From Ignavibacteriales bacterium (lineage in GTDB: Bacteria > Bacteroidota > Ignavibacteria > UBA10030): DNA of 34,918 bases. Shown here in pieces: positions 5,094 to 31,203 of the stretch. The notes under the pieces are model-generated. The model worked only from the letters and a program-made list of their open reading frames with translations. It did no database searches and was not told the DNA's origin. The DNA is taken from contig JAPLFP010000055.1 in assembly GCA_026390585.1 (NCBI GenBank), positions 1-34,918 on the forward strand. Reading direction: 5' to 3'. Within the stretch, counting starts at the first letter, position 1. Each line of letters begins with the position of its first letter. A program made the translations under genes and the position numbers.

Positions 5094-6734
5094 ATGACCA
5101 CCAGGCCCAAGACCACATATCCGACTAAGGCAAAAAAGCCCAAGAAGGTCAATGCCACCGTCAATGGCCAAACGGACCTCATCAACAAACTTTGGCAGGC
5201 TGCTGTAACCCTTCGCGGCTCTATCGAGCCAGCAGATTACAAGCGGTACGTTTTGCCAATCATTTTCTTGCGATTTCTGTCACTCCGATTTGAACGGCGG
5301 CGTGATGAATTGACAAAGTTGGTTCAAGACCCCAAGAGCGAGTACTACACAACAAATCGCAAATCCGCAGAAGCTACCCTGAAAGACCCTGATGAATACC
5401 GCTCAGCCGGCGCGTTCATTGTCCCCGAAAAAGCCCGATGGGATCATATCCGAATTAATGCGCAGGCTGACAACGTCAAGGTCGTCCTCGACGATGCACT
5501 GGAGCTGTTGGAGAATACATATCCTGAGAAACTGCGTGGTCTCCTACCCCGCATCTACGCCGGATCCAACCTTGAACGGGAAAGCGTCACCGGGCTGATC
5601 AATCTCTTCTCAAAGGACGTCTTCAAGCAGGACCTCAAGGGAGAGGATCTGATCGGCAGGGTCTACGAATATTTCATTGGGGAGTTTGCCAACTCGGAAG
5701 GGAAACGGGGCGGCGAGTACTTCACACCGTCAAGCATAGTTCGCATGCTCGTAGCCATGCTCGAACCTGAAGAAGGCTCTGTCTTTGACCCGTGTTGTGG
5801 CTCCGGCGGCATGTTCGTGCAATCCGATATCTTCACTAAGCACAGTCACCGGCTGTCGTTCTTCGGACAGGAATCCAAGGACTTCACCTACCGCCTCTGC
5901 CGGATGAACCTCTTCATTCACGGCATCGATGGGAACATTCAGCTTGGCAACTCCTACACCGATGACAAACATGCGACGGTGAAAGCAGATTACCTTCTGG
6001 CAAATCCGCCCTTCAACGATGGTTCGAAAAGCGAAACCGGCTGGGGTGCAGACCGGATTCCCGACAAGGATCCAAGGCTCCAAATTCGTAATGACCGGAT
6101 GCCCCTGTCCCCGCGCAATGCGAACACAATGTGGATCATGCACTTCCTATACCACCTCGCTGAGGGAGGTGCGGCAGGATTCGTCATGGCGACGGGTGAG
6201 CTTTCCAATGGCGAAACCGCCCGCCTCGCCGTCCGAAAGACATTGGTGGAAAACGAATATGTTGATTGCATCGTCCAGCTCACGGGGCAACTCTTTGCCA
6301 ACACTCAGATCCCCTGCGCTCTGTGGTTTCTTTCTAAGAACCGCACCGGCACACATCGCTGCCGTAAGCGGACCGGTGAGATTCTGTTCATCGACGGCCG
6401 TAAGTTAGCCTCTCTCATTCCCGGCTCACGGAAGCAGAAGTATCTTTCTGACCTAGAATTAGAAAAGATGGCTGTTGTATACCGGAAGTTTCGACGGGAA
6501 GGCCGACCTGAAGATGTACCCGGCTTCTGCAGGGTGGCGGCGCTCGACGAAATCCGCGAGCACAATTATGCTCTGACACCCGGTCGATATGTCGGGTCAG
6601 AGAATGGTGTTGAGGACGACGAGCCGTTCGAAGAGAGATTCCCGAAACTCATGCAACAATTGAAAGAGCAGTTTGTGGAAGGGTCAAAGCTAGAGAAAGA
6701 GATCACGAAACAATTGGAGCAATTCAACGAGTGA
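5094..6734 (+). CDS. hsdM: Type I restriction-modification DNA methyltransferase subunit
   Basis: A 546-residue HsdM that transfers a methyl group from S-adenosylmethionine to the N6 of adenine and forms the M2S core with HsdS. An N-terminal HsdM helical domain (about 20-150) is followed by the N6-methyltransferase domain. Visible motifs are FDPCCGSGG (D232; SAM-binding motif I) and NPPF (304-307; catalytic motif IV). The length is normal and no lesion is seen. The C-terminus overlaps the first codon of hsdS in a GTGA junction (6731-6734), which implies translational coupling. The ribosome site before the ATG is poor. This is the one core subunit of the system that looks fully intact. Confidence 0.93.
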   Translation: MTTRPKTTYPTKAKKPKKVNATVNGQTDLINKLWQAAVTLRGSIEPADYKRYVLPIIFLRFLSLRFERRRDELTKLVQDPKSEYYTTNRKSAEATLKDPDEYRSAGAFIVPEKARWDHIRINAQADNVKVVLDDALELLENTYPEKLRGLLPRIYAGSNLERESVTGLINLFSKDVFKQDLKGEDLIGRVYEYFIGEFANSEGKRGGEYFTPSSIVRMLVAMLEPEEGSVFDPCCGSGGMFVQSDIFTKHSHRLSFFGQESKDFTYRLCRMNLFIHGIDGNIQLGNSYTDDKHATVKADYLLANPPFNDGSKSETGWGADRIPDKDPRLQIRNDRMPLSPRNANTMWIMHFLYHLAEGGAAGFVMATGELSNGETARLAVRKTLVENEYVDCIVQLTGQLFANTQIPCALWFLSKNRTGTHRCRKRTGEILFIDGRKLASLIPGSRKQKYLSDLELEKMAVVYRKFRREGRPEDVPGFCRVAALDEIREHNYALTPGRYVGSENGVEDDEPFEERFPKLMQQLKEQFVEGSKLEKEITKQLEQFNE

Positions 6735-7938
6735 CTACAACAGTTCACAGAGTCAGAGATCTCATCGACGCCAATCATTTGATGGCTTTCATCTCGACGA
6801 TGCAGATCGGTTTCCAGAAGAAGACTTGCACAAAGTGGGTGATAAGATCAGCCGACCAGGCGACGTGGTGTTCACATCCAAAGGGACAGTCGGCAGGTTT
6901 GCGTTCGTCCGGCCAGAAACGCCAAGGTTTGTCTATTCCCCGCAGCTCTCATACTGGCGAAGTCTGAATCAGGATTTCATCGATTCACGCTTCCTTTACT
7001 ATTGGTTGCAGTCCCGGGAGTTTCTTGAGCAAGCTGCTGGAGTGAAGGGCCAAACTGACATGGCAGACTACGTGAGTCTCAAAGATCAGAGATTCATGAA
7101 AATCACGCTGCCGCACGTTGATATACAACGTGCTATTGCTTGCATCCTCGGTGCATTGGACGACAAGATCGAGCTCAACCGAAGGATGAACATTACGCTT
7201 GAGGCCATGGCACAATCACTCTTCAAGTCGTGGTTCGTGGACTTTGATCCGGTGGTTGTCAAGATGGACGGGAAGAAGCCATACGGCATGAATGAAGCAA
7301 CGGCAGCACTATTTCCCGACAAGCTGGTCGAGTCGCAGGTTGGGCTGATGCCGGAAGGGTGGGACCTAAGAAGACTTGACGAAGTCTGCAGTATCAATCC
7401 ACAAACTATCAGCAATGGCTACGCATTGAATCACATTCAATATGTTGACATTTCATCTGTCACGCGTGGAATACTCACTCAAACAACGCCTTACTCATTG
7501 AAAGAAGCCCCTAGTCGAGCCCAGCGGTTGGTGTCTGATGGTGATACAATCTGGTCATGCGTTAGACCTAACCGTCAGTCTTATTTGTTTATTGACCACC
7601 CACCCGAGGATCTTGTCGTTTCGACTGGCTTCGCCGTCTTATCGCCCACAGATGTTCAACCAGTCTATCTATACACGTGGGTGACTACAGACGACTTCGT
7701 TGACTATTTGACAGCCAACGCTGAGGGGAGTGCCTACCCCGCTGTCCGTCCGGAAGCCTTTGCGAAAGCTCTTGTCCTCGTCCCTACGAAGCAAATCCTC
7801 AATCACTTTGAAGTACAAATCAACCCAATGCGGAGGCTGATCGCTCAGAACAACAGGGAAACTGTTGCCCTCCAATCAGTACGTGGCACGCTTCTCCCGA
7901 AGCTCTTGTCCGGCGAGGTGAGTGTGAAGGAGGTGTAA
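6731..7938 (+). pseudogene. hsdS: Type I specificity subunit with 5' out-of-frame deletion
   Basis: HsdS carries two target-recognition domains that set the DNA sequence bound by the complex. Reading from the GTG at 6731, the frame gives a typical HsdS start (VHRVRDLIDANHL) and then nonsense from about 6780. In the next frame, typical HsdS sequence begins abruptly at about 6781 (DGFHLDDADRFPEEDLHKVG) and stays open to 7938. The piece that normally joins these two parts, roughly 25-30 residues around an IGDGYRAKN-like stretch, is absent. An out-of-frame deletion of about 80 bases explains this. The rest is normal: central conserved region LGALDDKIELNRRM, a second recognition domain, and the end LLPKLLSGEV. 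A TTG at 6826 could start a shortened protein without the beginning of the first recognition domain. A sequencing or assembly error is the alternative. Confidence 0.75.
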
Positions 7939-8015
7939 CATATCTTAGTGGAGAGCGAGCTGCCTTGTCGGCAAGTTCGCTGGCCATCCCCTCCATTCCA
8001 AAGAAAGGGTAAGGG

Positions 8016-8480
8016 ATGAACATCTTTCTGAGCTACAGTGTCAACGATATTGACCTGGTCCGTCAGATTGCTGATTGCATTCATCGCCATGGCCAAGTAT
8101 ACTACTGGGATAAAAGCAAAATTCCAGGCCAAGAATCTTGGCCATCTATCTTTGAATGGATTGACGCGTCTGATCTTGTCATCGCAATTATCACAGGCAA
8201 CACTGTAAGTCGCGCGATGGCTGTTGGACAAGAGATCGGGCATGCAAGAGCCAAGGGGAAAGCGATAATCCCGATTGTTACCCCTGAGGTACCTGCAACT
8301 GAACTCGGCTTTTTGAGTGGAATAGTCTACCAACGTCTCGATAGGAACAACCCGAAAGAGGCTATCGCGGCAATTGAGAAGATTGTCCTCGACATGAAGC
8401 GTCGGAAAGAGGAGAATGTTCAGGCATTCTTTGTCATTGGCGGGCTGGTTGCGTTGATCCTGCTGGCTTCACACGAATGA
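8016..8480 (+). CDS. TIR-domain protein with C-terminal membrane anchor
   Basis: A 154-residue protein. Residues 1-125 read as a bacterial TIR domain: opening MNIFLSYSVND, a WDKSKIPGQESW loop, SDLVIAIIT, and VGQEIGHARAKG with a glutamate in the position of the TIR catalytic Glu. Residues 134-150 (AFFVIGGLVALILLA) form one hydrophobic helix, likely a membrane anchor. Many bacterial TIR domains cleave NAD+ when a partner senses infection; whether this one does is inferred. It lies between hsdS and hsdR on the same strand, with 77 and 69 bases on either side, so it probably shares their transcript. A ribosome site (AAAGGGTAAGG) precedes the ATG. No separate sensor domain is fused to it. Confidence 0.8.
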   Translation: MNIFLSYSVNDIDLVRQIADCIHRHGQVYYWDKSKIPGQESWPSIFEWIDASDLVIAIITGNTVSRAMAVGQEIGHARAKGKAIIPIVTPEVPATELGFLSGIVYQRLDRNNPKEAIAAIEKIVLDMKRRKEENVQAFFVIGGLVALILLASHE

Positions 8481-8549
8481 AGCAATGTAGCAAAGCCCAA
8501 GACAAAGAAACATCATTTCTCTAAACAAGCAGAAAGCAGACCTTGAGTC

Positions 8550-11390
8550 ATGCCCCACCGTGGCACTGAAACCGAGTTTGAGCTAACCACGATCGAGCGT
8601 ATTGAACGCCTCGGGTACGGCTACATTCACGGAGAGGAGTTGGACCGCCCCCATGAGGAGGTCGTGCTGCGAGACGTGCTGAGAAGGGTGTTGGTAAAGG
8701 GCTATCCCGACCTGCCTCCCCGCTCCATCGATGAAGCCGTAGCCCGCTTTGCACGCCCTGAAGGAGTGGACACGCTACGCCGCAACATGTCGTTCCACAA
8801 TGACCTCACTCGTGGCATCGAGGTTAAGGTTGAACATCCGAACGGCAAAGTTGAGCACCGCCACTTGTACGCAATCGACTGGGACACACCTACGAACAAT
8901 GAGTTCCTTGTTGTCAACCAGTTTCCCATCCACGGCAAGAATGATCGCCGTCCAGACATTCTCATCTTTATCAACGGCCTTCCTCTGGTTCTCTTCGAGC
9001 TTAAGAATCCATACGACAAACACCCGACAGTCGATCACGCACTCAACCAGATAGCACACTACAGGAACGACATCGCACAACTGTTTGACTTCAACGCCGT
9101 CACCGTCGTCTCGGATGGGGTCACCACACTGCACGGGGCGTGGACTTCAACGTCGGAGTGGTTCGCACCGTGGAAATCCATCGATGGTTTCAACACCGAG
9201 GCAAATTCCACAGGCAGCATGAAAATGCTGGTCGAGGGTATGTTGCCAAAAGACCGCCTTTTGTCCTACATCAGAGATTTTCTTGTGTTTGAGGTCGTCA
9301 ACGACAAGATTACCAAGAAGGGCGCGAAGTACCATCAATTCTTCGCCGTCCGGATCGCCGCACAAAAAGCCATCGAATCATTCAGACCCGATGCCGACAA
9401 ACGAATCGGCGTCATTTGGCACACGACCGGTTCAGGTAAGTCATTGTCCATGGTGTTTCTCGTCGGAATCCTCCGTCGACATCCCGAGATGCAGAACCCC
9501 ACTTTCGTGATCGAAGTAGACCGAACCGACCTCGACAATCAGATCCATGACCAGTTTGTTGCTGCGCGCGCTCTCGTTGGTGATGTCAAACATGCTGACA
9601 GCGTCGATGATTTGCGCACCATGCTTCAGACTGAAGGCGGCGAAGTGATCTTTACGACCATCGAGAAGTTCAGGCTCAAGTCCGATGAAGGTGAAATTGA
9701 GCACCCTGTTCTTTCGAATAGATCCAACCTCATTATTATCGCGGATGAAGCTCACCGCACTCAGTATGGTTTCCTCAAAGGTTACGCTCGCTATCTCGCA
9801 GAAGCACTCCCAAATGCCAGGCGCATGGGATTCACCGGGACACCGGTCAGCTTCAGCGGATCTGACACCGTTGAAGTGTTTGGTGATCTGATCCATTGGT
9901 ATGATATCAAGCAGTCGCAGGCCGACAAGGCAACCGTTCCAATCTTCTATGCGCCACGACAAATCAAACTGCATCTTACCAGTGCCGACATTGACGCTGC
10001 ACTTCAAGACATTATTTCTAGACACCCCGTCGATGACCTCGAACGAAGGCAGGCACAGTGGTCAGCTTTGGCGTCGGCAGCAGGTTCGAAGGACCGGCTC
10101 GATCGACTCGCGAGTGACCTTCTGATGCACTTCCTGGATCGCACAGCCACGCTGAAAGGTAAGGCGATAATTGTGTGTATGACGAGGGAAAACTGCGTCC
10201 GTCTCTACGATGCCCTTACTGTATTGCCCAATTGCCCTGAAGTCAAGATTGTGATGACGGGCGACCTCTCGAATGATCCGCCTGAATGGAGCGCCGCAGG
10301 TCACATCACGACGAAGGCTCAACGTGATGCAATCAAACAACGGATGATCGACCCCGATGACCCGCTCAAAATTGTCATCGTGTGTGATATGTGGCTCACT
10401 GAGCCGGCGCCAGATGTGGCTGAAGAAGCAAAACCTGTGTTCTTCGAATGTCTAGAGGTCGTGCGCAAACAACTCCCCACCAACGTTGATTACGGCTCCT
10501 GGCGCCGGTTGTCACGAATTGAACTTGAGGACAGATTTGCTGCAGTGTTTGGTCACCTCACAGACACAGAAGAACGACAGGATGACTTCTTGCAGGATGA
10601 GTTGAGGCTTACACAGTCCTATCTCCTTGTGAAGCATCTTGACGAGTGCCGCCGTATTGCAGACGAAATCATATTCTATCAGCGGGTCCGCAACCAGCTT
10701 CTGAAGCTGTCTCCCGGACGTAAGGATAAGCCAGAACTCGATCAGGCCGTTCGAGACCTCGTAGATGACAGTCTCCAGACAGAGGGGGTCGTCGACATTT
10801 TCAATTTGTCAGGTATCGAGAAAGCTGACATTTCAATTCTCGATGACAAGTTCCTCCAAACGTTCAAGGACAAGCCGTTCGAAAACCTTCGTGTCAAACT
10901 GCTCGAAAAGCTCATCAGTGACGCGATTGAGTTTCGGCAGAGAGGCAATCTTGCAAAGGCAAGGAGTTTCAAGGAGCTGCTGGAAGCGACTCTCAGGAAT
11001 TATCACAATCGGCTGATTGATGCGGCAGCGGTTGTCAAGGCAATGATCCAGATCCGGCTGGAGATGGAGAATGAGGATAAGCGCGCCGCGGAGTTGGGAC
11101 TAGAGCCAGAAGAGCTTGCATTCTATGATGCAGTTGCAGCTAACTACGACAACATTTATGGTGTGAAGTTCCTTCGTGACCTAGTCCATGAGGTCGTCCT
11201 GACGATCAAGCGAAACCTCAAAGTTGACTGGACGGAACCTCATAGAGAGGATATCAAGGCAACAATTCGTTCTGCAGTCAAACGTGTGCTGCGTAACCGA
11301 GGAGTCAAGACTGAGGACTTCGACAAGTTTGTTGGCGAAATCATGAGACAAGCAGAAGCTCTATATGCCGACTGGCCGTTAGCGGCGTGA
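8550..11390 (+). CDS. hsdR: Type I restriction subunit with internal deletion
   Basis: HsdR is the ATP-driven translocase and nuclease of type I systems. This copy has 946 residues, shorter than the usual 1000 or more. The nuclease domain is present (D136 in RPDILIF; E150-L-K152). So is the first helicase lobe: Walker A TGSGKS (293-298), DEAH (399-402), GFTGTP (428-432). The second lobe runs normally to VIVCDMWLT (609-617) and then jumps to EPAPDVAEEAKPV. The expected GFDAP stretch and the QAIARVNR-like motif VI, plus the VVDY stretch, are missing, about 60-75 residues. The reading frame is kept, so a product is made, but ATP-driven translocation should be impaired. The C-terminal helical domain looks normal. 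The stop overlaps a possible GTG of the next gene. Confidence 0.88.
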   Translation: MPHRGTETEFELTTIERIERLGYGYIHGEELDRPHEEVVLRDVLRRVLVKGYPDLPPRSIDEAVARFARPEGVDTLRRNMSFHNDLTRGIEVKVEHPNGKVEHRHLYAIDWDTPTNNEFLVVNQFPIHGKNDRRPDILIFINGLPLVLFELKNPYDKHPTVDHALNQIAHYRNDIAQLFDFNAVTVVSDGVTTLHGAWTSTSEWFAPWKSIDGFNTEANSTGSMKMLVEGMLPKDRLLSYIRDFLVFEVVNDKITKKGAKYHQFFAVRIAAQKAIESFRPDADKRIGVIWHTTGSGKSLSMVFLVGILRRHPEMQNPTFVIEVDRTDLDNQIHDQFVAARALVGDVKHADSVDDLRTMLQTEGGEVIFTTIEKFRLKSDEGEIEHPVLSNRSNLIIIADEAHRTQYGFLKGYARYLAEALPNARRMGFTGTPVSFSGSDTVEVFGDLIHWYDIKQSQADKATVPIFYAPRQIKLHLTSADIDAALQDIISRHPVDDLERRQAQWSALASAAGSKDRLDRLASDLLMHFLDRTATLKGKAIIVCMTRENCVRLYDALTVLPNCPEVKIVMTGDLSNDPPEWSAAGHITTKAQRDAIKQRMIDPDDPLKIVIVCDMWLTEPAPDVAEEAKPVFFECLEVVRKQLPTNVDYGSWRRLSRIELEDRFAAVFGHLTDTEERQDDFLQDELRLTQSYLLVKHLDECRRIADEIIFYQRVRNQLLKLSPGRKDKPELDQAVRDLVDDSLQTEGVVDIFNLSGIEKADISILDDKFLQTFKDKPFENLRVKLLEKLISDAIEFRQRGNLAKARSFKELLEATLRNYHNRLIDAAAVVKAMIQIRLEMENEDKRAAELGLEPEELAFYDAVAANYDNIYGVKFLRDLVHEVVLTIKRNLKVDWTEPHREDIKATIRSAVKRVLRNRGVKTEDFDKFVGEIMRQAEALYADWPLAA

Positions 11391-12401: not shown

Positions 12402-13040
12402 TTGAAAAAGGCACCCCCTACAATACTAGTCTCCTCAACCGTTCACCGAATTGAGGACTTACTCGATCAAGTATATGGAGTACTGGGAAGTCTTGGATAC
12501 AAAGTCTGGATGTCACACAAAGGTACTATTCCGGTTCATCCCAGAAAATCCAACTTCCAGAATTGTCTAATTGCTGCGGAAAGATGCGACCTATTTTTCG
12601 GAATTATCACTCCATTCTACGGAAGCGGAAAAGCTGGCTCTGGCCTCTCCATTACTCATCAAGAAATGCTGAAGGCGATCAAGCTGGACAAACTCCGATG
12701 GTTCGTCGCACATCACCATGTCGATTTTGCTCGCAAGCTTCTTAGGCAATATCGCTTCTTCAAAAATGGGAACCCCAAGAAAATCAAGTTTAGTAAAACT
12801 GACGTCATGGATGACCTCCGAGTATTGGACATGTATGAGGCTGCCACACGCGACAATGTACCTCTTCTTTCGAGAACTGGGAACTGGGTGCAGCCATATG
12901 TTCAATCTGAAGATGTCCTGCGCTTTATCACGGCGCAGTTCGGAGATTTGAAACGAATAGAACAACTGATCGAGGAGCAAAAAGCACATGCAAAAAGCAT
13001 TAAGCGATCTGCTCGCCCAGGGCGAAACAGAAAACACTGA
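12402..13040 (+). CDS. DUF4062-domain protein
   Basis: A 212-residue protein starting with TTG, supported by GGAG at 12392-12395. The sequence matches the DUF4062 style: ILVSSTVHRIEDL at the start, GYKVW, a cysteine-rich NCLIAAERCDLFFGII strand, YGSG and SITHQEM. DUF4062 is a Rossmann-like domain, often N-terminal in STAND-type and other conflict proteins. Here it stands nearly alone, with a basic tail (KSIKRSARPGRNRKH). It overlaps the next gene by 53 bases in another frame, which ties the two together in translation. A regulatory or sensor role with the downstream ATPase is inferred. Confidence 0.75.
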   Translation: MKKAPPTILVSSTVHRIEDLLDQVYGVLGSLGYKVWMSHKGTIPVHPRKSNFQNCLIAAERCDLFFGIITPFYGSGKAGSGLSITHQEMLKAIKLDKLRWFVAHHHVDFARKLLRQYRFFKNGNPKKIKFSKTDVMDDLRVLDMYEAATRDNVPLLSRTGNWVQPYVQSEDVLRFITAQFGDLKRIEQLIEEQKAHAKSIKRSARPGRNRKH

Positions 13041-14355
13041 GTTCAAGGCATTTGCTGATTCAAGAGTAATCGCGGAAACTGTCTGTGCCTTTCTCAACGC
13101 GGGTGGAGGCACTTTGCTTGTTGGGGTTGGCGACAAGGGAAAAGTTAGGGGCGTTCCGCAAGCAGAGGAGCAGGCAGCAAACATTCTGAGACGATTGTAT
13201 GTTGACATCAGTCCCAAAACGATCTGGTCGGTCACTGTCGAAAACGGCGGAGTCATCATGATCGGTGTTCCGTCTGGCAAGGATAAGCCATATACGTTTA
13301 ATGGCAGAATCTTCGTGCGTGAAGGTGCAGCAACACAGGAAGCCAACTCAGACGCCATTCGCAAGATGGTGGAGGCCCAACTCCAGGAACCGATGCGCTG
13401 GGAAAGACTGTTCGCCCAGGGGCTTGAACCGGACAGCCTGAATGAAGAACAGATCCGGCAAACTGCTTTGGACGGAACCAACTTCCGTGGCTGTCGTTTT
13501 CAAGATCTCAAAAACGTGTCTATTATTCTAGAGGACCTTTCTCTCCAACGAGGGGGTACGCTTACAAATGCTGCGGATGTTTTGTTCAACAAGAATCCCA
13601 ACCGGCGACTGCCACAGACAAGGGTCCGGGCAACAGTGTTCCCCACCGACAAAGGGGGAAAGTACACCGATGATCGCCTTTTTGAAGGCAACGCACTTGA
13701 GTTGTTTAATAATCTCCAGTCCTTTCTTCGCCAATACGTGAGCATTGAGGTTGATTTCCCCAGGGGAAAGTCCGAAAGAAAAGAAAAACCCAAATACCCA
13801 TTCACGGCACTGGACGAGGCGCTTGTGAACGCCTTCGTTCACAGGGACTACTCACAATTCAGCGGAGGAATGTCAGTCGGAGTTTATCCAACGCGCATAG
13901 AAATTTGGAACTCGGGAGGATTGCCAGAAGGGCTGAGCATTTCTGATTTGAGGCGACGACATCCATCCAAGCCTAACAATCCGGACATTGCTCACGTTTT
14001 TTACCTCCGACGGTTGATGGAACGTGTTGGTCGAGGTACACAGAAAATCATTGATGAGTTCAAGGCCGCGGGACTTCCGGCACCCGTTTGGGAATCCTCG
14101 CCGACGGGTGTAACACTTATACTCAAATCAAAAGCAACCAAAGATAAGGTCGCTTTGAATGCGCGACAATTGTCTCTTATCGCCAAACTCCGTTCTGGGG
14201 ATTCTATCGAGCCAAAGAACTATTACTCGCAGATGTCTTCGGAGATCACACAACGACAGGCCCAGCGTGATCTGGCAAGGTTGGCAGCTGGTGGCTGGTT
14301 GCGCCGAGTAGGAACAGCACGTTCGACGATATATATTCGAACTGATAAGGAGTGA
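12988..14355 (+). CDS. AlbA_2 domain / HATPase-like regulator (COG2865 type)
   Basis: A 455-residue protein. Residues 8-115 form an AlbA_2 (Schlafen-like) domain: TEFKAFADSRVIAETVCAF, then FLNAGGGTLLVGV. Residues 265-370 match the C-terminal HATPase-like domain of COG2865 proteins: ALDEALVNAFVHRDYS, RIEIWNSGGLPEG, RVGRGTQKI. The last 70 residues look like a winged helix (TQRQAQRDLARLAAGGWLRRVG). Such proteins are annotated as putative transcriptional regulators or RecG-related and are common in defence islands. GAGGAG (12972-12977) precedes the ATG, which lies inside the DUF4062 gene. It may regulate the island or act with its neighbour; neither is shown. Confidence 0.82.
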   Translation: MQKALSDLLAQGETENTEFKAFADSRVIAETVCAFLNAGGGTLLVGVGDKGKVRGVPQAEEQAANILRRLYVDISPKTIWSVTVENGGVIMIGVPSGKDKPYTFNGRIFVREGAATQEANSDAIRKMVEAQLQEPMRWERLFAQGLEPDSLNEEQIRQTALDGTNFRGCRFQDLKNVSIILEDLSLQRGGTLTNAADVLFNKNPNRRLPQTRVRATVFPTDKGGKYTDDRLFEGNALELFNNLQSFLRQYVSIEVDFPRGKSERKEKPKYPFTALDEALVNAFVHRDYSQFSGGMSVGVYPTRIEIWNSGGLPEGLSISDLRRRHPSKPNNPDIAHVFYLRRLMERVGRGTQKIIDEFKAAGLPAPVWESSPTGVTLILKSKATKDKVALNARQLSLIAKLRSGDSIEPKNYYSQMSSEITQRQAQRDLARLAAGGWLRRVGTARSTIYIRTDKE

Positions 14356-20333: not shown

Positions 20334-21587
20334 CTAGTTGGATACAAATCCTAACGACTTCTCCTTGTTCCTGGGAGTTTGGTAAAAGCCCCGATGCAAC
20401 CGTTCGATAGTCTGAAGAACAAATCCTTCATCGAGTGTAGCTGATTTCAATGCTGAAGCAATCTCAAGATGTTTGACAACATTCATTATGAATGCGCCGG
20501 AAGCCCTCTTTTTCTCCAGCAACTCAAAGACGTTGATCGTAAACAATCTCACAATACTCTCGTCTGGACATCGCTCGTGTATCATCTGTCGATAGAGGTC
20601 GGGATCAACAATATCCGTGTCGATGATTGCATCAAATCGGCCCGGCCTTGCCGCAGCTTGATCAACCCATCGTTTATCATTCGTTGTGGCGAGCACAAAC
20701 ACATTCAATTTGGACAAACCATCTATAGCGCCAAGAAACTCTCCCAAACGCTCCCGATTAACAACGTCCCTCCGGTCCCCAAAAACCAAATCTAGATCAT
20801 CGACGCACACCACGACAGGGGAAAACAATGCAGCAAAATCGAACAAGTCGATGAACTCAACCGGGCCTTCAATGAGCAAAAATGTCGCATAGCCACGGGT
20901 GGCTTCGATAATGGAGCGGATGATCTCCGATTTTCCCGTACCCGGCTTGCCCTCAAAAAGGTATCGTAATGGTTTTTGAACAACCGGAAAATTCTTGATC
21001 GTTTCGATCATAAATTCGATTGCGGCCTTCGTGTCCTCTTTCATCATCATCTTGCTCAGGTCTTGCCCCGTGACTTTGCAGGGCTTGATAGTCAGTGAGT
21101 TTTCACCCAGAGGATTCCACGTTATACGGAGAACCTCGTGCTTGAAGTGTGAGTTTGCGACAGATTGTTCCATCAACCTATCCAACAATTGTTTGGGCGA
21201 GGCTGCTTCCTGCGACAGGGACAAGCAATAAGCCATGTGAATCCTTTGGCCATCGTGCATGGATTCTTTGGACGCGTTCACCTCATAAAGGCCTCCGGCC
21301 CAATCCAATGTCACTTCCAAAACTCCGTCGGAGACCAATGAAAAAGTACTCGATGTAGTATCGACGGTTGATGGTGTGAGGGGACGATGGGAAAGAGATG
21401 TGTGGCTGACACAACGGACGATCTTTACATCGGGGTCCTCAAACCTTCCGGCGTGTACTGCATGAAGGTATGATTTGAGGAAGTCATACTCGTAAGCCGT
21501 GATCACGCGTTCCGATGCTTTACTGTCAGAAATCTGGTTGCGTTTTGGTAAACTAACAAGCCTGTGGTGTAGTTGCATATGTCTCAT
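20334..21587 (-). CDS. AAA+ ATPase (CDC48/FtsH-like module)
   Basis: A 417-residue protein with one AAA+ module in its second half: Walker A GKPGTGKS (213-220), Walker B VVVCVDD (258-264, aspartate in place of the usual final glutamate), sensor 1 N303 in ATTND, and an arginine-finger region AARPGRFD (312-319). The N-terminal 190 residues are unlike known adaptors and may bind the substrate. The build resembles remodelling ATPases that unfold or disassemble proteins; no protease or membrane segment is fused. An AAAGGAGA ribosome site precedes the start, and the next gene downstream encodes the cREC protein. The substrate is unknown. Confidence 0.85.
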   Translation of the reverse strand: MRHMQLHHRLVSLPKRNQISDSKASERVITAYEYDFLKSYLHAVHAGRFEDPDVKIVRCVSHTSLSHRPLTPSTVDTTSSTFSLVSDGVLEVTLDWAGGLYEVNASKESMHDGQRIHMAYCLSLSQEAASPKQLLDRLMEQSVANSHFKHEVLRITWNPLGENSLTIKPCKVTGQDLSKMMMKEDTKAAIEFMIETIKNFPVVQKPLRYLFEGKPGTGKSEIIRSIIEATRGYATFLLIEGPVEFIDLFDFAALFSPVVVCVDDLDLVFGDRRDVVNRERLGEFLGAIDGLSKLNVFVLATTNDKRWVDQAAARPGRFDAIIDTDIVDPDLYRQMIHERCPDESIVRLFTINVFELLEKKRASGAFIMNVVKHLEIASALKSATLDEGFVLQTIERLHRGFYQTPRNKEKSLGFVSN

Positions 21588-24236: not shown

Positions 24237-24284
24237 CAGCACCCCTTAGCATTCCTGCTTCACATCTCCGCCGTCCCTTGTAAT

Positions 24285-24322
24285 GTGGACAAGGTGGATC
24301 CTCATTTCTTCGTCATGTCCAC
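24285..24322. repeat. Origin-like hairpin repeat, copy 1
   Basis: 38 bases: GTGGACAAG (24285-24293) and CATGTCCAC (24314-24322), pairing 8 of 9, with a loop containing ATTTCTTC. The left arm with its preceding T reads TTGTCCACA on the other strand, a DnaA-box-like nonamer. Confidence 0.75.
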
Positions 24323-24513
24323 AAGCGCCAACCCTAAACTTTAGCATTATATGTTCAGCTGAGAGTGTCTTGATAATACTCCCGTCGAGGTCCGCTGATA
24401 AGGCCTGATATGAACGGACATCAACCCGATCGTGGATGTGATCGTTGAAAGTGAATTCCGCACATAAGGTGAGCACGTGGCACTTCTAGCGATTATGAAA
24501 TTGAGGGTTCCCT

Positions 24514-24551
24514 GTGGACAGGGTGGGTAATCGTTTCTTTTCCTTGTCCAC
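24514..24551. repeat. Origin-like hairpin repeat, copy 2
   Basis: 38 bases: GTGGACAGGG (24514-24523) with CCTTGTCCAC (24542-24551). The loop has GGGTAATCGTTTCTTT, closely matching copies 1 and 3. Confidence 0.78.
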
Positions 24552-24670
24552 GAGTACTACGCTTAGAAAGTGGTAAATACATCCCGGCGGGATAGATCTC
24601 TCATGGATCAAATCCATGGAAGTGATCCAGAAGTACGATCACTCCTACAATCACAAGAAGTGTGATTCTT

Positions 24671-24707
24671 GTGGACAAGCGGGTATTCATTTCTTCTTCT
24701 TGTCCAC
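24671..24707. repeat. Origin-like hairpin repeat, copy 3
   Basis: 37 bases: GTGGACAAG (24671-24679) pairs perfectly with CTTGTCCAC (24699-24707). The loop is GGGTATTCATTTCTTC-like. It lies about 207 bases before the polymerase-like gene. Confidence 0.8.
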
Positions 24708-24913: not shown

Positions 24914-26761
24914 ATGTCTAGGGCATTAGAGGAGATTATTTCAAGCGGAAGCATTACTAGCGCCAAGGAATTGGAGATTACCCCCAGTCTTGTGGGTTAT
25001 GGCAGTAATTTCACGCCTAATCCGACGGCAATTAAGATCAACGATTCATCTGAAGTCGGAAATTTGGACTCAACTGGTTACAACCATTCCTCGTCCTCAA
25101 TTCCCGACCAAACCTGTTACCTAAATATCACAGACTCGAAGGGCAGTATGGCTTCTCCGGAAATCGCTGATAAACTCAAAGGTGGGATATTGAGAGGCGG
25201 AAAGGATTACTTCAGGGATCGTTCTCCAATTGTGGCAAGAGGTAGAAAAGACCGGGAAAAGAAAACGATAGTTTTCTATGTCCCGAACAACTTGGACCTC
25301 GAAGCAAAGCTAGCTCAACATTACCCAGATATGCTTAGACACAAAGACAAATTATACTATGTGTTGGATAAATTGTACGTAATGGCCTTCCTTGACAAGC
25401 GGTTTAGTTCTTCAAGTTCTTACTTACCATTTCTAAGTCAGAATTCCTCTAGTTCTAATGCAATTTCTCCTTCTGACTATAACACAATTACTTCCCTTAG
25501 CAACAATCCTTTTTCAACAAATAGTTTTAATACGTTTAGCTCTTCATCTCTTTGTAATGCCATACCATCTCCTCCTTTTTCTTCAAATACTCCATTTCAT
25601 AACAATAATATGAATGTGTTACACACTTATGGTGTCTACTCAGAAGGTTTGTGTACTAAACCGAAGAAAACGAGAAAGGGATTAGGAAAAAGAAAGAGGA
25701 CAGCCAAAGAACCGACAAAGCATGGCAAAAGGCCCGGAAAAAGGGAATACATACGTCTTAACACCAAAATACTCAGGAGGGTGCTGACGTGCGAGCTGGC
25801 TAGGCCAATAATGGAAGCCTTAACCTCTCTCAATTTCGCGGAAACTGACAACCAATACATTTTGGGAGAAAAGTCGAGAGGATATAAACTGACCCTACCA
25901 TATAGATCCGCTCCGTTCACAACAGTGACGATCGCAGACAAACGATTTCACAACAAGTTGGTGAAGATCAAAGAAAGAGAGATCCTGAATCTGTCCCCCC
26001 TTCACCAACAAATTTATCAGAACCTGTCTTCGTTTTCCTTCGACTTAGTAGCTGCCGAGGCTCTCTTAGACCAGATGAATGGCAATACTAGACAATTTCT
26101 CACCGTGAGACTCGCTATTGACAAAATACAGAAACAGGACTTCTTTTTCTCGACAGATAGGAAGACGGGGCGAATCTTTCACAATTACTGCAATCTTAAG
26201 AAAGAATTCCGCCAGTGCATCCTGGATGCAGATGGACTGACGATGGTTGACATCGACATTTGCAACAGTCAACCCTTCTTTCTCGCCCTCATGCTAAAGG
26301 AGAGTCTTGTCGAGTCTGACAACGTTCTTAAGTACATCGCACTGACAGTGGATGGACAACTGTATGATCATATCGGCGAGAAGTATTCCATGGAAAGAAC
26401 ATACGTGAAAAAACTTGTCTTCACACTCTTCTTTTGCAGGAACAATCAGAAGGCAAAACTCAAGGAGATATTCCAAGAAGAGTTCCCGGATGTCAATTCA
26501 TTTATCGAAGAAGTCAAAGGAAACGACTACAAGAACCTTTCAATCCAGTTACAGAAGCTAGAAGCATCGATGATGATTGACACGATCGGTCAAAGACTTT
26601 TGGAAAAGGGAATCACGTTCATCACAATTCACGATAGCTTCATGGTGTCCGCAAAAGATGTTGAGATTACACTGCACGTGATGAAAGAAGCCTTCATGGG
26701 GGGATATGGGGTCGTGCCAAAATTTGGAGTCACGCGTGGGGATTGTAAGGTGATCCGATGA
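24914..26761 (+). CDS. Divergent family-A-like polymerase, putative replicase
   Basis: A 615-residue protein behind a strong GGGAGG site. The C-terminal 240 residues carry the order of motifs seen in family-A polymerases: a GRIFHNYCNLKKEFRQ segment, motif A VDIDICNSQP (D446/D448), a basic helix in motif B position (K499, K500; YVKKLVFTLFF) and motif C ITIHDSF (H573-D574). There is no 3'-5' exonuclease domain. The N-terminal part is unlike known domains; residues 163-242 are a Ser/Asn-rich low-complexity insert whose coding strand is very poor in G, followed by a basic linker (KKTRKGLGKRKR). Position behind origin-like repeats suggests it replicates the element. The T7-like RNA polymerase family shares the HDSF motif C, so DNA versus RNA synthesis is open. 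Its stop overlaps an ATG of the next frame. Confidence 0.68.
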   Translation: MSRALEEIISSGSITSAKELEITPSLVGYGSNFTPNPTAIKINDSSEVGNLDSTGYNHSSSSIPDQTCYLNITDSKGSMASPEIADKLKGGILRGGKDYFRDRSPIVARGRKDREKKTIVFYVPNNLDLEAKLAQHYPDMLRHKDKLYYVLDKLYVMAFLDKRFSSSSSYLPFLSQNSSSSNAISPSDYNTITSLSNNPFSTNSFNTFSSSSLCNAIPSPPFSSNTPFHNNNMNVLHTYGVYSEGLCTKPKKTRKGLGKRKRTAKEPTKHGKRPGKREYIRLNTKILRRVLTCELARPIMEALTSLNFAETDNQYILGEKSRGYKLTLPYRSAPFTTVTIADKRFHNKLVKIKEREILNLSPLHQQIYQNLSSFSFDLVAAEALLDQMNGNTRQFLTVRLAIDKIQKQDFFFSTDRKTGRIFHNYCNLKKEFRQCILDADGLTMVDIDICNSQPFFLALMLKESLVESDNVLKYIALTVDGQLYDHIGEKYSMERTYVKKLVFTLFFCRNNQKAKLKEIFQEEFPDVNSFIEEVKGNDYKNLSIQLQKLEASMMIDTIGQRLLEKGITFITIHDSFMVSAKDVEITLHVMKEAFMGGYGVVPKFGVTRGDCKVIR

Positions 26762-26856
26762 TTAATACCTCTAAACGTCAAGCATTTGCAGGCAGAAAGA
26801 CTGTATTACGATCCAACATTTCAGTTTTACCAAACAATAACATAAAGGAGCAAGTT

Positions 26857-27525
26857 ATGCGCAATACAAAGCAGTCCGTTCAACGTTCATTCAAATCCAG
26901 AGCTCATTCACCACGGTTCAAGATTGACAAACAGCTGAAAAAGGAACGCTCTAACCAAGTCAGGGTCTACGTAAAGGGGCTTTCGGAACACGGATATTTC
27001 CCCAAAGGAGCCTTCGCTGTCATCATTGATTTTCGTGGCAACACCATAGAGCTGAGTGGATCCGAAGAGAACCAATCAAACATTAGGATGGAGATGTTCG
27101 CTATGATCAAAGCCATTGAACATCTCAAAGCTGAATATCGAACAGTTGTCGTCTTCTCTGAATTGAATATGCTGGTGGATGCCTTTCAGAAGGATTGGAT
27201 TGGTAATTGGGCACAATTGGGATGGAGGAAAGGAAATGGAAGTCGTCTTGAGAACCGTGACCTTTGGAAACAAATCTATGAAAGTTCTTACTCAATGTTC
27301 GTTGAATTCAGCAGACCCGAGAGTCCAAGGGACGTGGAATTCATCCGACTGGCTACCCATTATGCAAAAGTGGCCTTGAATCTTCCATTGATAAAAGACC
27401 AAGTACGATTTCTTCCGATCAGTTCAAAGTCGGGCATACACATGGTCACGTTTTATCCAGACTTGCAGGACATTCCAGAAGAAGACTTCGAATTTAGCGG
27501 AGGTGAGAGTGAGGATCGAAAATGA
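26857..27525 (+). CDS. RNase HI-fold protein with replaced catalytic residues
   Basis: I prefer the ATG at 26857 because AAAGGAG stands 6 bases before it; an ATG at 26758 overlapping the polymerase stop would add 33 residues. The 222-residue protein follows RNase HI along its length: VRVYVKG, then GAFAVIIDFRG, IRMEMFAMIKAIEHLK, VVVFSELNMLV, DWIGNWAQLGWRKGNG, ENRDLWKQI. Against E. coli RNase HI, the catalytic set D10-E48-D70-D134 becomes K40-E79-E102-I163, so only one residue is unchanged. It is probably not a standard RNase H and may bind RNA-DNA hybrids or serve as a structural partner of the polymerase. D159 or E161 might compensate. It is co-transcribed with the polymerase gene. Confidence 0.75.
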   Translation: MRNTKQSVQRSFKSRAHSPRFKIDKQLKKERSNQVRVYVKGLSEHGYFPKGAFAVIIDFRGNTIELSGSEENQSNIRMEMFAMIKAIEHLKAEYRTVVVFSELNMLVDAFQKDWIGNWAQLGWRKGNGSRLENRDLWKQIYESSYSMFVEFSRPESPRDVEFIRLATHYAKVALNLPLIKDQVRFLPISSKSGIHMVTFYPDLQDIPEEDFEFSGGESEDRK

Positions 27526-29027: not shown

Positions 29028-30047
29028 ATGGCTTCACTTATCAAGGGAAACAACCGTAACTACACCATAGTTTATCACGACTTCGAGCGTCGGAGATGGA
29101 AATCCACGTTTACTAGCGACCATGAGGAAGCCCAACGAATATTCGATTTGTTGGTACCAAATCTCGAGCGTTCGAGGAAGACGAGTCTCAGTTACCTTGC
29201 CCATCGAATCGATGAATATACCAAGGCAAACCTTTCAGGGGAAACCGCCAAGATGTACTCAAGGACATTCAGAATGCTACAAAGTTCCCTCGGAGATTTG
29301 CCCCTCAGAAATATCACTACACTCAATATCGAAAAGTTTAAGCAGGACCGGCTAAAGCATGTACTTCCTGTCACCGTCAATATTGACCTTCGAACGCTGC
29401 GTTCTGCGTTCAACCTTGCTGTAGATTGGGGACTGATGGACCAAAATCCTGCCAAGCGCTGCAAGCTGTTAAGGATTCCACAGATAGACCATATGTTCCT
29501 TTCAAAATCGGAATTTCTCAACCTCTGTTCGTCTATCAATGATGAGCAGTTTCGTCGTCTTCTCCTTCTTGCAGTCCGAACTGGAATGCGACGAGGAGAA
29601 ATTGTGAATCTGTGCTGGGAAGATATGGACTTCACAAGAAAGTCTATTCGAATTCGAAATAGGCAGACCTTTGTGGTCAAGGGAATGCGACCTCGCACAA
29701 TCCCGATGCCTGAGGACATTTGGCAGCACTTTCAGACTTTGAGCAAGACCAGCGGTTATGTCTTCACTAAGGTCAATGGTTCACCACTCAGCGCGCACTC
29801 CGTTTCCCGTAGATTCAAGCGCCTCCTGCGAATATGTGGGTTGCCCCAGGAACTACATTTTCACTCACTTCGCCGAACCTACGCCTCTTGGTTAGCTTTG
29901 GCAAGCGCTCCGATTCATGACATTCAACGTCTTCTCGGTCACCAAAATGTTCAGACAACCGAGCTGTACATAACCTTGCCCTCCGAGCACCTCAGGCAAA
30001 GTGCGAGTCGAGTAGAACTGCCTGAGGTCCTCAAACGTACTGGTTAA
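29028..30047 (+). CDS. Tyrosine recombinase, copy 1 (rightward)
   Basis: A 339-residue site-specific recombinase with an N-terminal SAM-like core-binding domain (about 55-150) and a C-terminal catalytic domain. Catalytic residues are visible: R188 (TGMRRGE), H279 and R282 (HSLRRT), the GH box (LLGHQNV) and nucleophile Y314 (TELYITL). The residue after the second arginine is R where most relatives have H (HxLRH). No ribosome site is evident. It faces the second recombinase tail to tail, sharing TTAA as stop codons. It could carry out integration or excision at the tRNA site, or belong to an older element. Confidence 0.9.
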   Translation: MASLIKGNNRNYTIVYHDFERRRWKSTFTSDHEEAQRIFDLLVPNLERSRKTSLSYLAHRIDEYTKANLSGETAKMYSRTFRMLQSSLGDLPLRNITTLNIEKFKQDRLKHVLPVTVNIDLRTLRSAFNLAVDWGLMDQNPAKRCKLLRIPQIDHMFLSKSEFLNLCSSINDEQFRRLLLLAVRTGMRRGEIVNLCWEDMDFTRKSIRIRNRQTFVVKGMRPRTIPMPEDIWQHFQTLSKTSGYVFTKVNGSPLSAHSVSRRFKRLLRICGLPQELHFHSLRRTYASWLALASAPIHDIQRLLGHQNVQTTELYITLPSEHLRQSASRVELPEVLKRTG

Positions 30048-31063
30048 TTCAGGACAATCTGTTTTGATAACCCTTCCACCGTACTATGCAATTGTGAAGG
30101 TGCAAGGTGACTATAGCGTGCCGTAACTGAAATGGTCGAATGACCCATGAGTTGTTGGACTTCGTAGATGGGCACACTATTCTGAACCAACCAACTTGCA
30201 AAGGTATGGCGTAGTGAATGAAAATGGTAGTTATCTTTGAAGCCCAGACGGCGAAGATATTGTTTGAATCTTCGCGTGACCCAGACATCTCGGACTTTTC
30301 TACCATTAATGGTGACAACATACTCCGTTTGCTCGGAGATCTTGAGTTCACTCAACAATTGAATAGCCACATTGTTCAGCGGTATGACCCTCCTTTTTCC
30401 TGCTTTCGTTCTGAACGTAGAATCTGACTGAATCCTGACGACTCGTTCCGTCAAGGAAATGTCTCTCCACTTGAGATTGACGAGTTCACCCCTCCTCATT
30501 CCCGTGCAAGCAGCCAAGACAACGATTGACCGCAACCATTTTTCCTTAAACGCCGAAACCAAGGCTTGAAAATCGGAAGCACTGAAGAAAGCGGGAGAGC
30601 ATTCTGGAATCCGACACAGCGGTACATGAGAGAATGGGTTCGATTTTAACATCTCCCATCGAACGGCATAGGAGAATGCTGCCCGGAGCGTACGCAGTTC
30701 GATGTTGAGAGTAACTGGCGAGACCTCACCGAGTCTTCGCTGACGGTACAGATCAATGTGGCGAGCCGAGATGTTAGAGATTTCCAGATCACCGGCAACT
30801 CTCAGGAAGTGCGTCAGAGACTTCTTGTAGATTCCGACTGATCCCTTTGAATAGATGCTCGCTGCGAAGGAAAGAAAATCCCGGATGTAGATTGAAAGGC
30901 GTGGTGGTTGTTTCTTCCGAACATCATCAAGATCGATTGCCGGAAGTTTTCGCAAAGCATCTGACTTCTGACGTTCTCCGGTACTGATCCACCGGCGTCG
31001 GCCGTCGCGGGTATAGGAGATGAAATAGTACACTCCGTTGGAGCGCTTGAAGAGGGTAGGCAT
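30044..31063 (-). CDS. Tyrosine recombinase, copy 2 (leftward, next to tRNA-Glu)
   Basis: This 339-residue recombinase shares the architecture of its partner but has only moderate identity to it. The full catalytic set is present: R190 (TGMRRGE), H282 and R285 (HSLRHT), H308 (LMGHST) and Y317 (ARYSHL). The N-terminus has an arm-binding-type start (TLFKRSNGVYYF) as in lambda-like integrases. Its start lies 21 bases from the TGTTAGCA pair and about 70 from the tRNA-Glu 3' end. It is the likelier integrase of the element, its gene reading away from the attachment site. Confidence 0.92.
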   Translation of the reverse strand: MPTLFKRSNGVYYFISYTRDGRRRWISTGERQKSDALRKLPAIDLDDVRKKQPPRLSIYIRDFLSFAASIYSKGSVGIYKKSLTHFLRVAGDLEISNISARHIDLYRQRRLGEVSPVTLNIELRTLRAAFSYAVRWEMLKSNPFSHVPLCRIPECSPAFFSASDFQALVSAFKEKWLRSIVVLAACTGMRRGELVNLKWRDISLTERVVRIQSDSTFRTKAGKRRVIPLNNVAIQLLSELKISEQTEYVVTINGRKVRDVWVTRRFKQYLRRLGFKDNYHFHSLRHTFASWLVQNSVPIYEVQQLMGHSTISVTARYSHLAPSQLHSTVEGLSKQIVLN

Positions 31064-31103: not shown

Positions 31104-31130
31104 GGTGAGATTTTGCGGCTGTAAGTCTAG

Positions 31131-31203
31131 TACCCCCAACGAGATTCGAACTCGTGTACCGAGCTTGAAAAGCTCGTGTCCTAGGCCTCTAGACGATGGG
31201 GGC
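31131..31203 (-). tRNA. tRNA-Glu (anticodon TTC)
   Basis: A 73-base cloverleaf on the minus strand. The acceptor stem GCCCCCA pairs with TGGGGGT (one G-T pair at the end). The D-arm, the anticodon arm CGAGC-TTTTCAA-GCTCG (anticodon TTC) and the T-loop TTCGAAT are all in place. The 3' CCA is not encoded. Its 3' end faces the recombinase genes, so it is the likely attachment site. Confidence 0.95.

Follow-up and report, generated by a model that had tools for sequence, protein, structure and literature searches.

The window, by which we mean the whole stretch of 34,918 nucleotides analysed here from an Ignavibacteriales contig, carries an open reading frame for a polymerase-like protein, with palindromic repeats upstream and an RNase HI-like gene, two tyrosine integrases and a tRNA-Glu downstream (Table 1). 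The frame starts with an ATG that follows an AGGGAGG sequence 7 nt upstream, runs uninterrupted and retains the residues that are invariant in its family. An earlier note on this DNA had picked out the motifs VDIDICNSQP and (T)IHDSF, and both are present in the frame; the upstream repeats, the degenerate RNase H gene and the integrase/tRNA setting of a mobile element were absent from that note.

Table 1. Polymerase gene, its predicted parts and its surroundings in the window.
Feature	Position	Strand	Basis
Palindromic repeat 1, TGTGGACA...TGTCCAC	24284..24322		Repeat search
Palindromic repeat 2, TGTGGACA...TGTCCAC type	24513..24551		Repeat search
Palindromic repeat 3, TGTGGACA...TGTCCAC type	24670..24707		Repeat search
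Polymerase ORF, 615 aa	24914..26761	+	Open frame, Shine-Dalgarno, family of relatives
N-terminal extension, residues 1-115, mostly low confidence, missing in most relatives	24914..25258	+	Alignment A1, model
Winged-helix domain part 1 (helix 1), residues 120-162	25271..25399	+	pLDDT >90; isolated L119 domain
Ser/Asn-rich insert, residues 163-240, predicted disordered	25400..25633	+	Absent in 80 relatives, GC3 16/78
Lys/Arg-rich linker, residues 241-279; nearest relatives have a shorter basic linker	25634..25750	+	Alignment
Winged-helix domain part 2 (helices 2-3 and wing), residues 280-342	25751..25939	+	Model; isolated L119 domain
Thumb helices, residues 343-406	25940..26131	+	Model; named by position
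Palm and fingers, residues 407-611	26132..26746	+	Structure alignment Z about 15, conserved columns
RNase HI-like protein, overlaps polymerase gene by ATGA	26758..27525	+	Pfam 1.8e-9; alignment to 3h08
Tyrosine integrase	29028..30047	+	Pfam 7e-32
Tyrosine integrase adjoining tRNA	30044..31063	-	Pfam 4.4e-33
tRNA-Glu, probable integration site	31130..31203	-	ARAGORN; site differs in G002 and G003

At the same tRNA-Glu, one congeneric genome (G002) carries a different mobile element (L030, 2600-14500) with other replication-type genes and the same kind of integrase pair (339-aa tyrosine integrases), and in a second congener (G003) the tRNA-Glu is followed by unrelated genes and no integrases. 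Since the cargo differs in the one genome and the element is lacking in the other, the tRNA-Glu seems to be a hot spot of integration whose cargo can be exchanged. In the window we found no second att copy of this tRNA, and the element's left end was not located. No SSB partner was identified in the window either, which includes neighbours without a Pfam match. The window further encodes a type I restriction-modification operon (5094-11390; methyltransferase, specificity and restriction subunits), an ATP-binding-type protein that distantly matches pAgo-associated models of PADLOC (12988-14355; 1e-21) and an AAA ATPase that matches the defence protein IetA (20334-21587; 5e-10). When the RNase HI-like protein was aligned to 3h08, three of its four catalytic carboxylates appeared to be replaced, by Lys, Glu and Thr. 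The protein is therefore probably not an active nuclease, and on its residues it was rejected as an active RNase H partner of the polymerase; judged from its sequence, it might possibly bind hybrids rather than cut them.

The three palindromic units upstream of the polymerase gene measure 38-39 bp each. Six of the eight copies of TGTCCAC in the 35 kb fall in the repeat region, a count made post hoc, and a whole-genome pattern scan that allowed up to 3 mismatches matched just one of the three units, at the polymerase locus. The 9-mer TTGTCCACA may resemble a DnaA box. In the closest relative, L119, a different 21-mer occurs three times at the same position upstream, and most other relatives have no comparable repeats.

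Using AlphaFold2 on an alignment of relatives (A2), residues of about 120-160 and 280-611 were predicted with a pLDDT >90. Residues 353-611 aligned to the PolA/T7 polymerase fold with Z 15-15.7 over about 248 residues at an rmsd near 3, the partners being Pol theta, Taq, Bst and T7 DNA polymerase; T7 RNA polymerase reached Z 14.9, and mitochondrial RNA polymerases aligned over a longer stretch (about 340 residues, 112 to 605) at an rmsd near 5. Fold prediction and structure alignment (Z about 15) thus bear out the PolA/T7-class palm that had been suspected from the motifs. Since T7 RNA polymerase and the mitochondrial enzymes also align, the fold alone cannot separate a DNA polymerase from an RNA polymerase. 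Profile comparison gave 94.7% for canonical PolA (E 6e-8) versus 0.4% probability for T7-type RNA polymerases, and on this ground membership among the latter was rejected. Of the earlier assignment to 'PolA or T7-type RNA polymerase', the fold class, the shared HDS(F) motif and the link to PolA stand, and the affinity to T7 RNA polymerase does not.

The core residues are R420 in the hairpin, D448 in motif A, R495xxxK499xxxF503xxxF507 in motif B and H573-D574-S575 in motif C. In the alignment to the PolA profile, D448 takes the place of the catalytic Asp and Q453 that of the steric-gate Glu, and the fingers motif RxxxKxxxFxxxF matches RxxxKxxxFxxxY of Pol I. In alignment A2, D448 and K499 are invariant and D574 nearly so, and R420 is conserved. 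The steric-gate Glu of DNA polymerases is replaced by Q453 in a motif, NSQP, that also served to collect the sequences: the collections were scanned with the pattern DIxNSQP, so that part of the motif's invariance in A2 stems from the way of collection. DIxNSQP is also present in the relatives that tblastn returned, while one distant genome match has CSQF. G481 and Y484 are conserved columns of the fingers, where no clear column was seen for the Asp by which TV-Pol fingers are recognized. Pfam gave no match to a 3'-5' exonuclease domain and the model has no space for one, as the earlier note had supposed; the only Pfam match of the protein was RNA_pol, below the cut-off (21.1 versus 22 bits). 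The predicted structure is that of a superfamily A polymerase without exonuclease, and a catalytically plausible one.

The statement that no known N-domain is present has to be revised, as AlphaFold2 and structure alignment place a predicted winged-helix domain in front of the thumb. The corresponding domain of L119, the nearest homologue, was folded by itself with 50 relatives and reached a pLDDT of 89.5. Foldseek returned marginal winged-helix matches (E 0.2) for this isolated domain, and in VIA-align plasmid initiator structures ranked 1, 2 and 6 with Z 7.3, 7.0 and 6.5, tied with other winged helices and all with Z <8. The modelled N-domain may thus be most like plasmid RepA initiators, a weak resemblance that we treat as a lead and not as proof. 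With the matched entries (PDB 4pql, 4pt7 and 5kbj) it shares the topology and the presence of repeats near the gene; unlike the window protein, these entries lack a polymerase domain, and the likeness is structural and not drawn from sequence.

The Ser/Asn-rich insert (pLDDT 25-45) and the basic stretch after it separate helix 1 of the winged-helix domain from helix 2, in a loop whose length varies across the family. The linker between these helices comprises 123 aa in the window protein versus at most 28 (median 16) in 80 relatives. Comparison with homologues, the check proposed at the outset, found the insert in none of these 80, far from being conserved in all. It is a lineage-specific insertion, predicted to be disordered, in the winged-helix loop and not a family-shared domain, genuine but private to this polymerase copy. 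The reported count of 13 G in 180 coding-strand bases (25441-25620) is exact, and neither strand of the 35 kb has another 180-base interval with 13 or fewer G. The encoded residues account for most of this deficit: they predict 17.6 G, with P = 0.06 for 13 or fewer. For residues 163-240 the codon usage of the element itself predicts a GC3 count of 38.4 +/- 4.3; the observed one is 16/78, and the next-lowest 78-codon stretch among those sampled had 30. The composition break within one gene is therefore real and extends to synonymous sites; since third positions break too, segment 163-240 has a separate mutational or donor history, beyond the choice of residues. An RNA element and a repeated DNA were considered for the insert and rejected, as there is no Rfam match, no second copy in the genus and an internal periodicity limited to one 66-nt pair.

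No Pfam model exists for the family and a PDB sequence search returned no relative of it; among 81 aligned members, none passed DNA_pol_A and two touched RNA_pol. An unnamed PHROG family matched at 3.8e-10 and an 'RNA polymerase' PHROG at 7e-4. A tblastn search yielded one Hymenobacter plasmid and six megaphage records (595-735 kb), among them two whose matches score the same and lie at the same place; genome searches returned relatives within the same order and class. Single-sequence scans with the whole window protein or its catalytic part yielded nothing in the viral and bacterial genome contig collections; a nine-sequence profile yielded 119 viral and 38 bacterial loci, the nearest in Ignavibacteria. 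The family ranges over jumbo phages/megaphages, Ignavibacteria, Bacteroidota, Planctomycetes and Verrucomicrobia, and is patchy within the class (22 of 294 genomes). In the tree, the window protein grouped with L119 at low support (0.60). The relatives were rejected as plasmid replicons: the Hymenobacter plasmid was the only one, two other queries gave none, and small contigs showed no terminal overlap. In the same class of genomes there is a second A-class family, with the motif GGRFY...VExDYxxxH...RxxxK...HDSF, which is homologous at 98.1% in profile comparison. Its members (L269-L281) are uncharacterised, roughly 420-690 aa long and present also in 109 phage records, mostly of Vibrio phages. 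Going by its motifs, this second family would fit the TV-Pol description as printed (PMC2579912).

Tyrosine integrases were found on the examined flanks of 20 of the 38 bacterial loci, several within 100 bp, and other bacterial loci have HTH_17 excisionase-like genes nearby. A helicase, D5-like ones included, was not seen beside bacterial copies among the 25 of 46 neighbour families listed (106 neighbours). In six jumbo-phage loci (L004, L039, L041, L042, L044 and L045) the gene stands immediately before that of a canonical A-family polymerase (about 430 aa), and the two genes often overlap. Since these phages have a PolA of their own next door, the relative presumably serves another purpose; the role of primase is free, and priming is the natural guess. 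A beta-rich protein of 110-130 aa without Pfam match recurs in Bacteroidota, 0.2-1.3 kb from the polymerase in L132, L140, L147 and L152 and 3.3 kb from it in L153. It is a candidate for an SSB/OB-type partner.

Among known systems, the TV-Pol family (Iyer, Abhiman, Aravind 2008, PMC2579912) is described in print with a compact core of superfamily A like the present one, consisting of thumb helices, an Arg in the hairpin, an Asp pair in the palm and RxxxK, without a nuclease, and the window protein has the residues of the minimal core as printed there (R420, D448, R495/K499, D574). Both occur on mobile elements with integrases, and on the side of the present family also in jumbo phages. Unlike TV-Pol as described in print, the present family has the NSQP motif and a winged-helix front, and a D5-type helicase was not seen among the neighbour families listed. 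A gene of phage Ma-LMM01 taken as TV-Pol yardstick gave no profile match to the family, although the choice of gene may be wrong. CCPol-MP, a tested A-family primase and the closest biochemically tested analogue, can extend on RNA templates, and CCPol without its partner performs primer extension only (PMC7581432). CCPol-MP and the PolA-SSB primases (PMC7581432, PMC10061031) resemble the window protein in their family A catalytic domain, their mobile elements and the recombinase genes nearby, and by analogy it would likely be a primase; CCPol differs by a steric-gate Glu (E174) where the window protein has Gln, an SSB-like partner and a helicase. With DNA polymerase I and T7 DNA polymerase it shares the palm-fingers fold (Z about 15), the motif B spacing and the catalytic Asp pair, but it lacks the exonuclease, has HDS for HDE and Gln at the steric gate, and comprises thumb-palm-fingers and a winged helix only, together about 330 residues. 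The T7-like single-subunit RNA polymerases have the fold class and the HDSF motif C in common with it, yet there is no profile similarity and the window protein is much smaller.

We lean towards the view that the frame encodes an element-borne, origin-binding primase/polymerase of a distinct branch near TV-Pol. It would be the replication protein of a mobile element integrated at the tRNA-Glu. Its winged helix would bind the repeats adjoining the gene, here the three palindromes, and its palm would make short primers, or a primer plus its extension, on the opened DNA; the excised element would then be copied by the polymerase and host enzymes. Some jumbo phages may use the protein as primase for the canonical PolA whose gene follows immediately. 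This explanation is the best one and narrowly probable. It draws on the palm with its conserved D448, D574, R420 and K499 and its profile ties to PolA and the TV-Pol-like family, on the plasmid initiators among the top structural matches of the winged helix, on the three repeats here and the three different ones in L119, on the integrases near bacterial copies and the patchy distribution, on the jumbo-phage tandems and on CCPol-MP as the nearest tested analogue. It has to contend with a weak winged-helix match, with repeats that are not clear in most relatives and could be operators, with the lack of a helicase by bacterial copies (families listed) and of an identified SSB partner in the window, and with the missing left end.

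A polymerase for repair, gap filling or replication that extends the primers of others would have the same family A fold and motifs, and partnerless CCPol does just that (PMC7581432), but the minimal size, the absence of an exonuclease, the DNA-binding domain of its own and the full PolA that follows it in jumbo phages make this unlikely. Rather more doubtful is a miniature single-subunit RNA polymerase of T7 or mitochondrial type that would transcribe the element's genes or make RNA primers. The sub-threshold RNA_pol match, the T7-like HDSF, the PHROG annotation and the long mitochondrial alignment point that way; F503 occupies the PolA position of motif B where T7 RNA polymerase has Met, the repeats lie upstream of the polymerase gene only and are not scattered like promoters, and the profiles clearly favour PolA. 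We consider it very unlikely that this is a decaying, non-functional copy of an active family: it has the unique 78-codon low-complexity insert of deviant composition and a degenerate RNase H-like neighbour, but the frame is open behind a Shine-Dalgarno sequence, invariant residues are kept and the insert sits in a loop of variable length. A reverse-transcriptase-like or primer-processing pair of polymerase and RNase H, suggested by the ATGA overlap and by the extension of CCPol-MP on RNA templates (PMC7581432), is highly improbable given the replaced carboxylates and a neighbour found by sequence beside no relative.

Within the reading as an initiator-linked primase/polymerase, we tentatively propose a stronger form, in which one polypeptide would be origin-binding initiator and primase/polymerase at once: a RepA-type winged helix on element-specific repeats would bring in a palm of superfamily A for the de novo start of DNA strands (or strands of mixed RNA/DNA). 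The family lacks a Pfam model and has a winged-helix domain of its own, and some phages encode it in a tandem with canonical PolA. Nearly all known primases have one of two folds, DnaG and AEP (PMC10061031). If the proposal is true, this widespread and unnamed family would form a branch of primases outside DnaG and AEP, common to bacterial integrative elements and the largest phages, in which it would act beside a canonical PolA. It would offer a testable case that Pol I-class palm enzymes became primases more than once, and a model for a possible fusion of initiator and primase functions.
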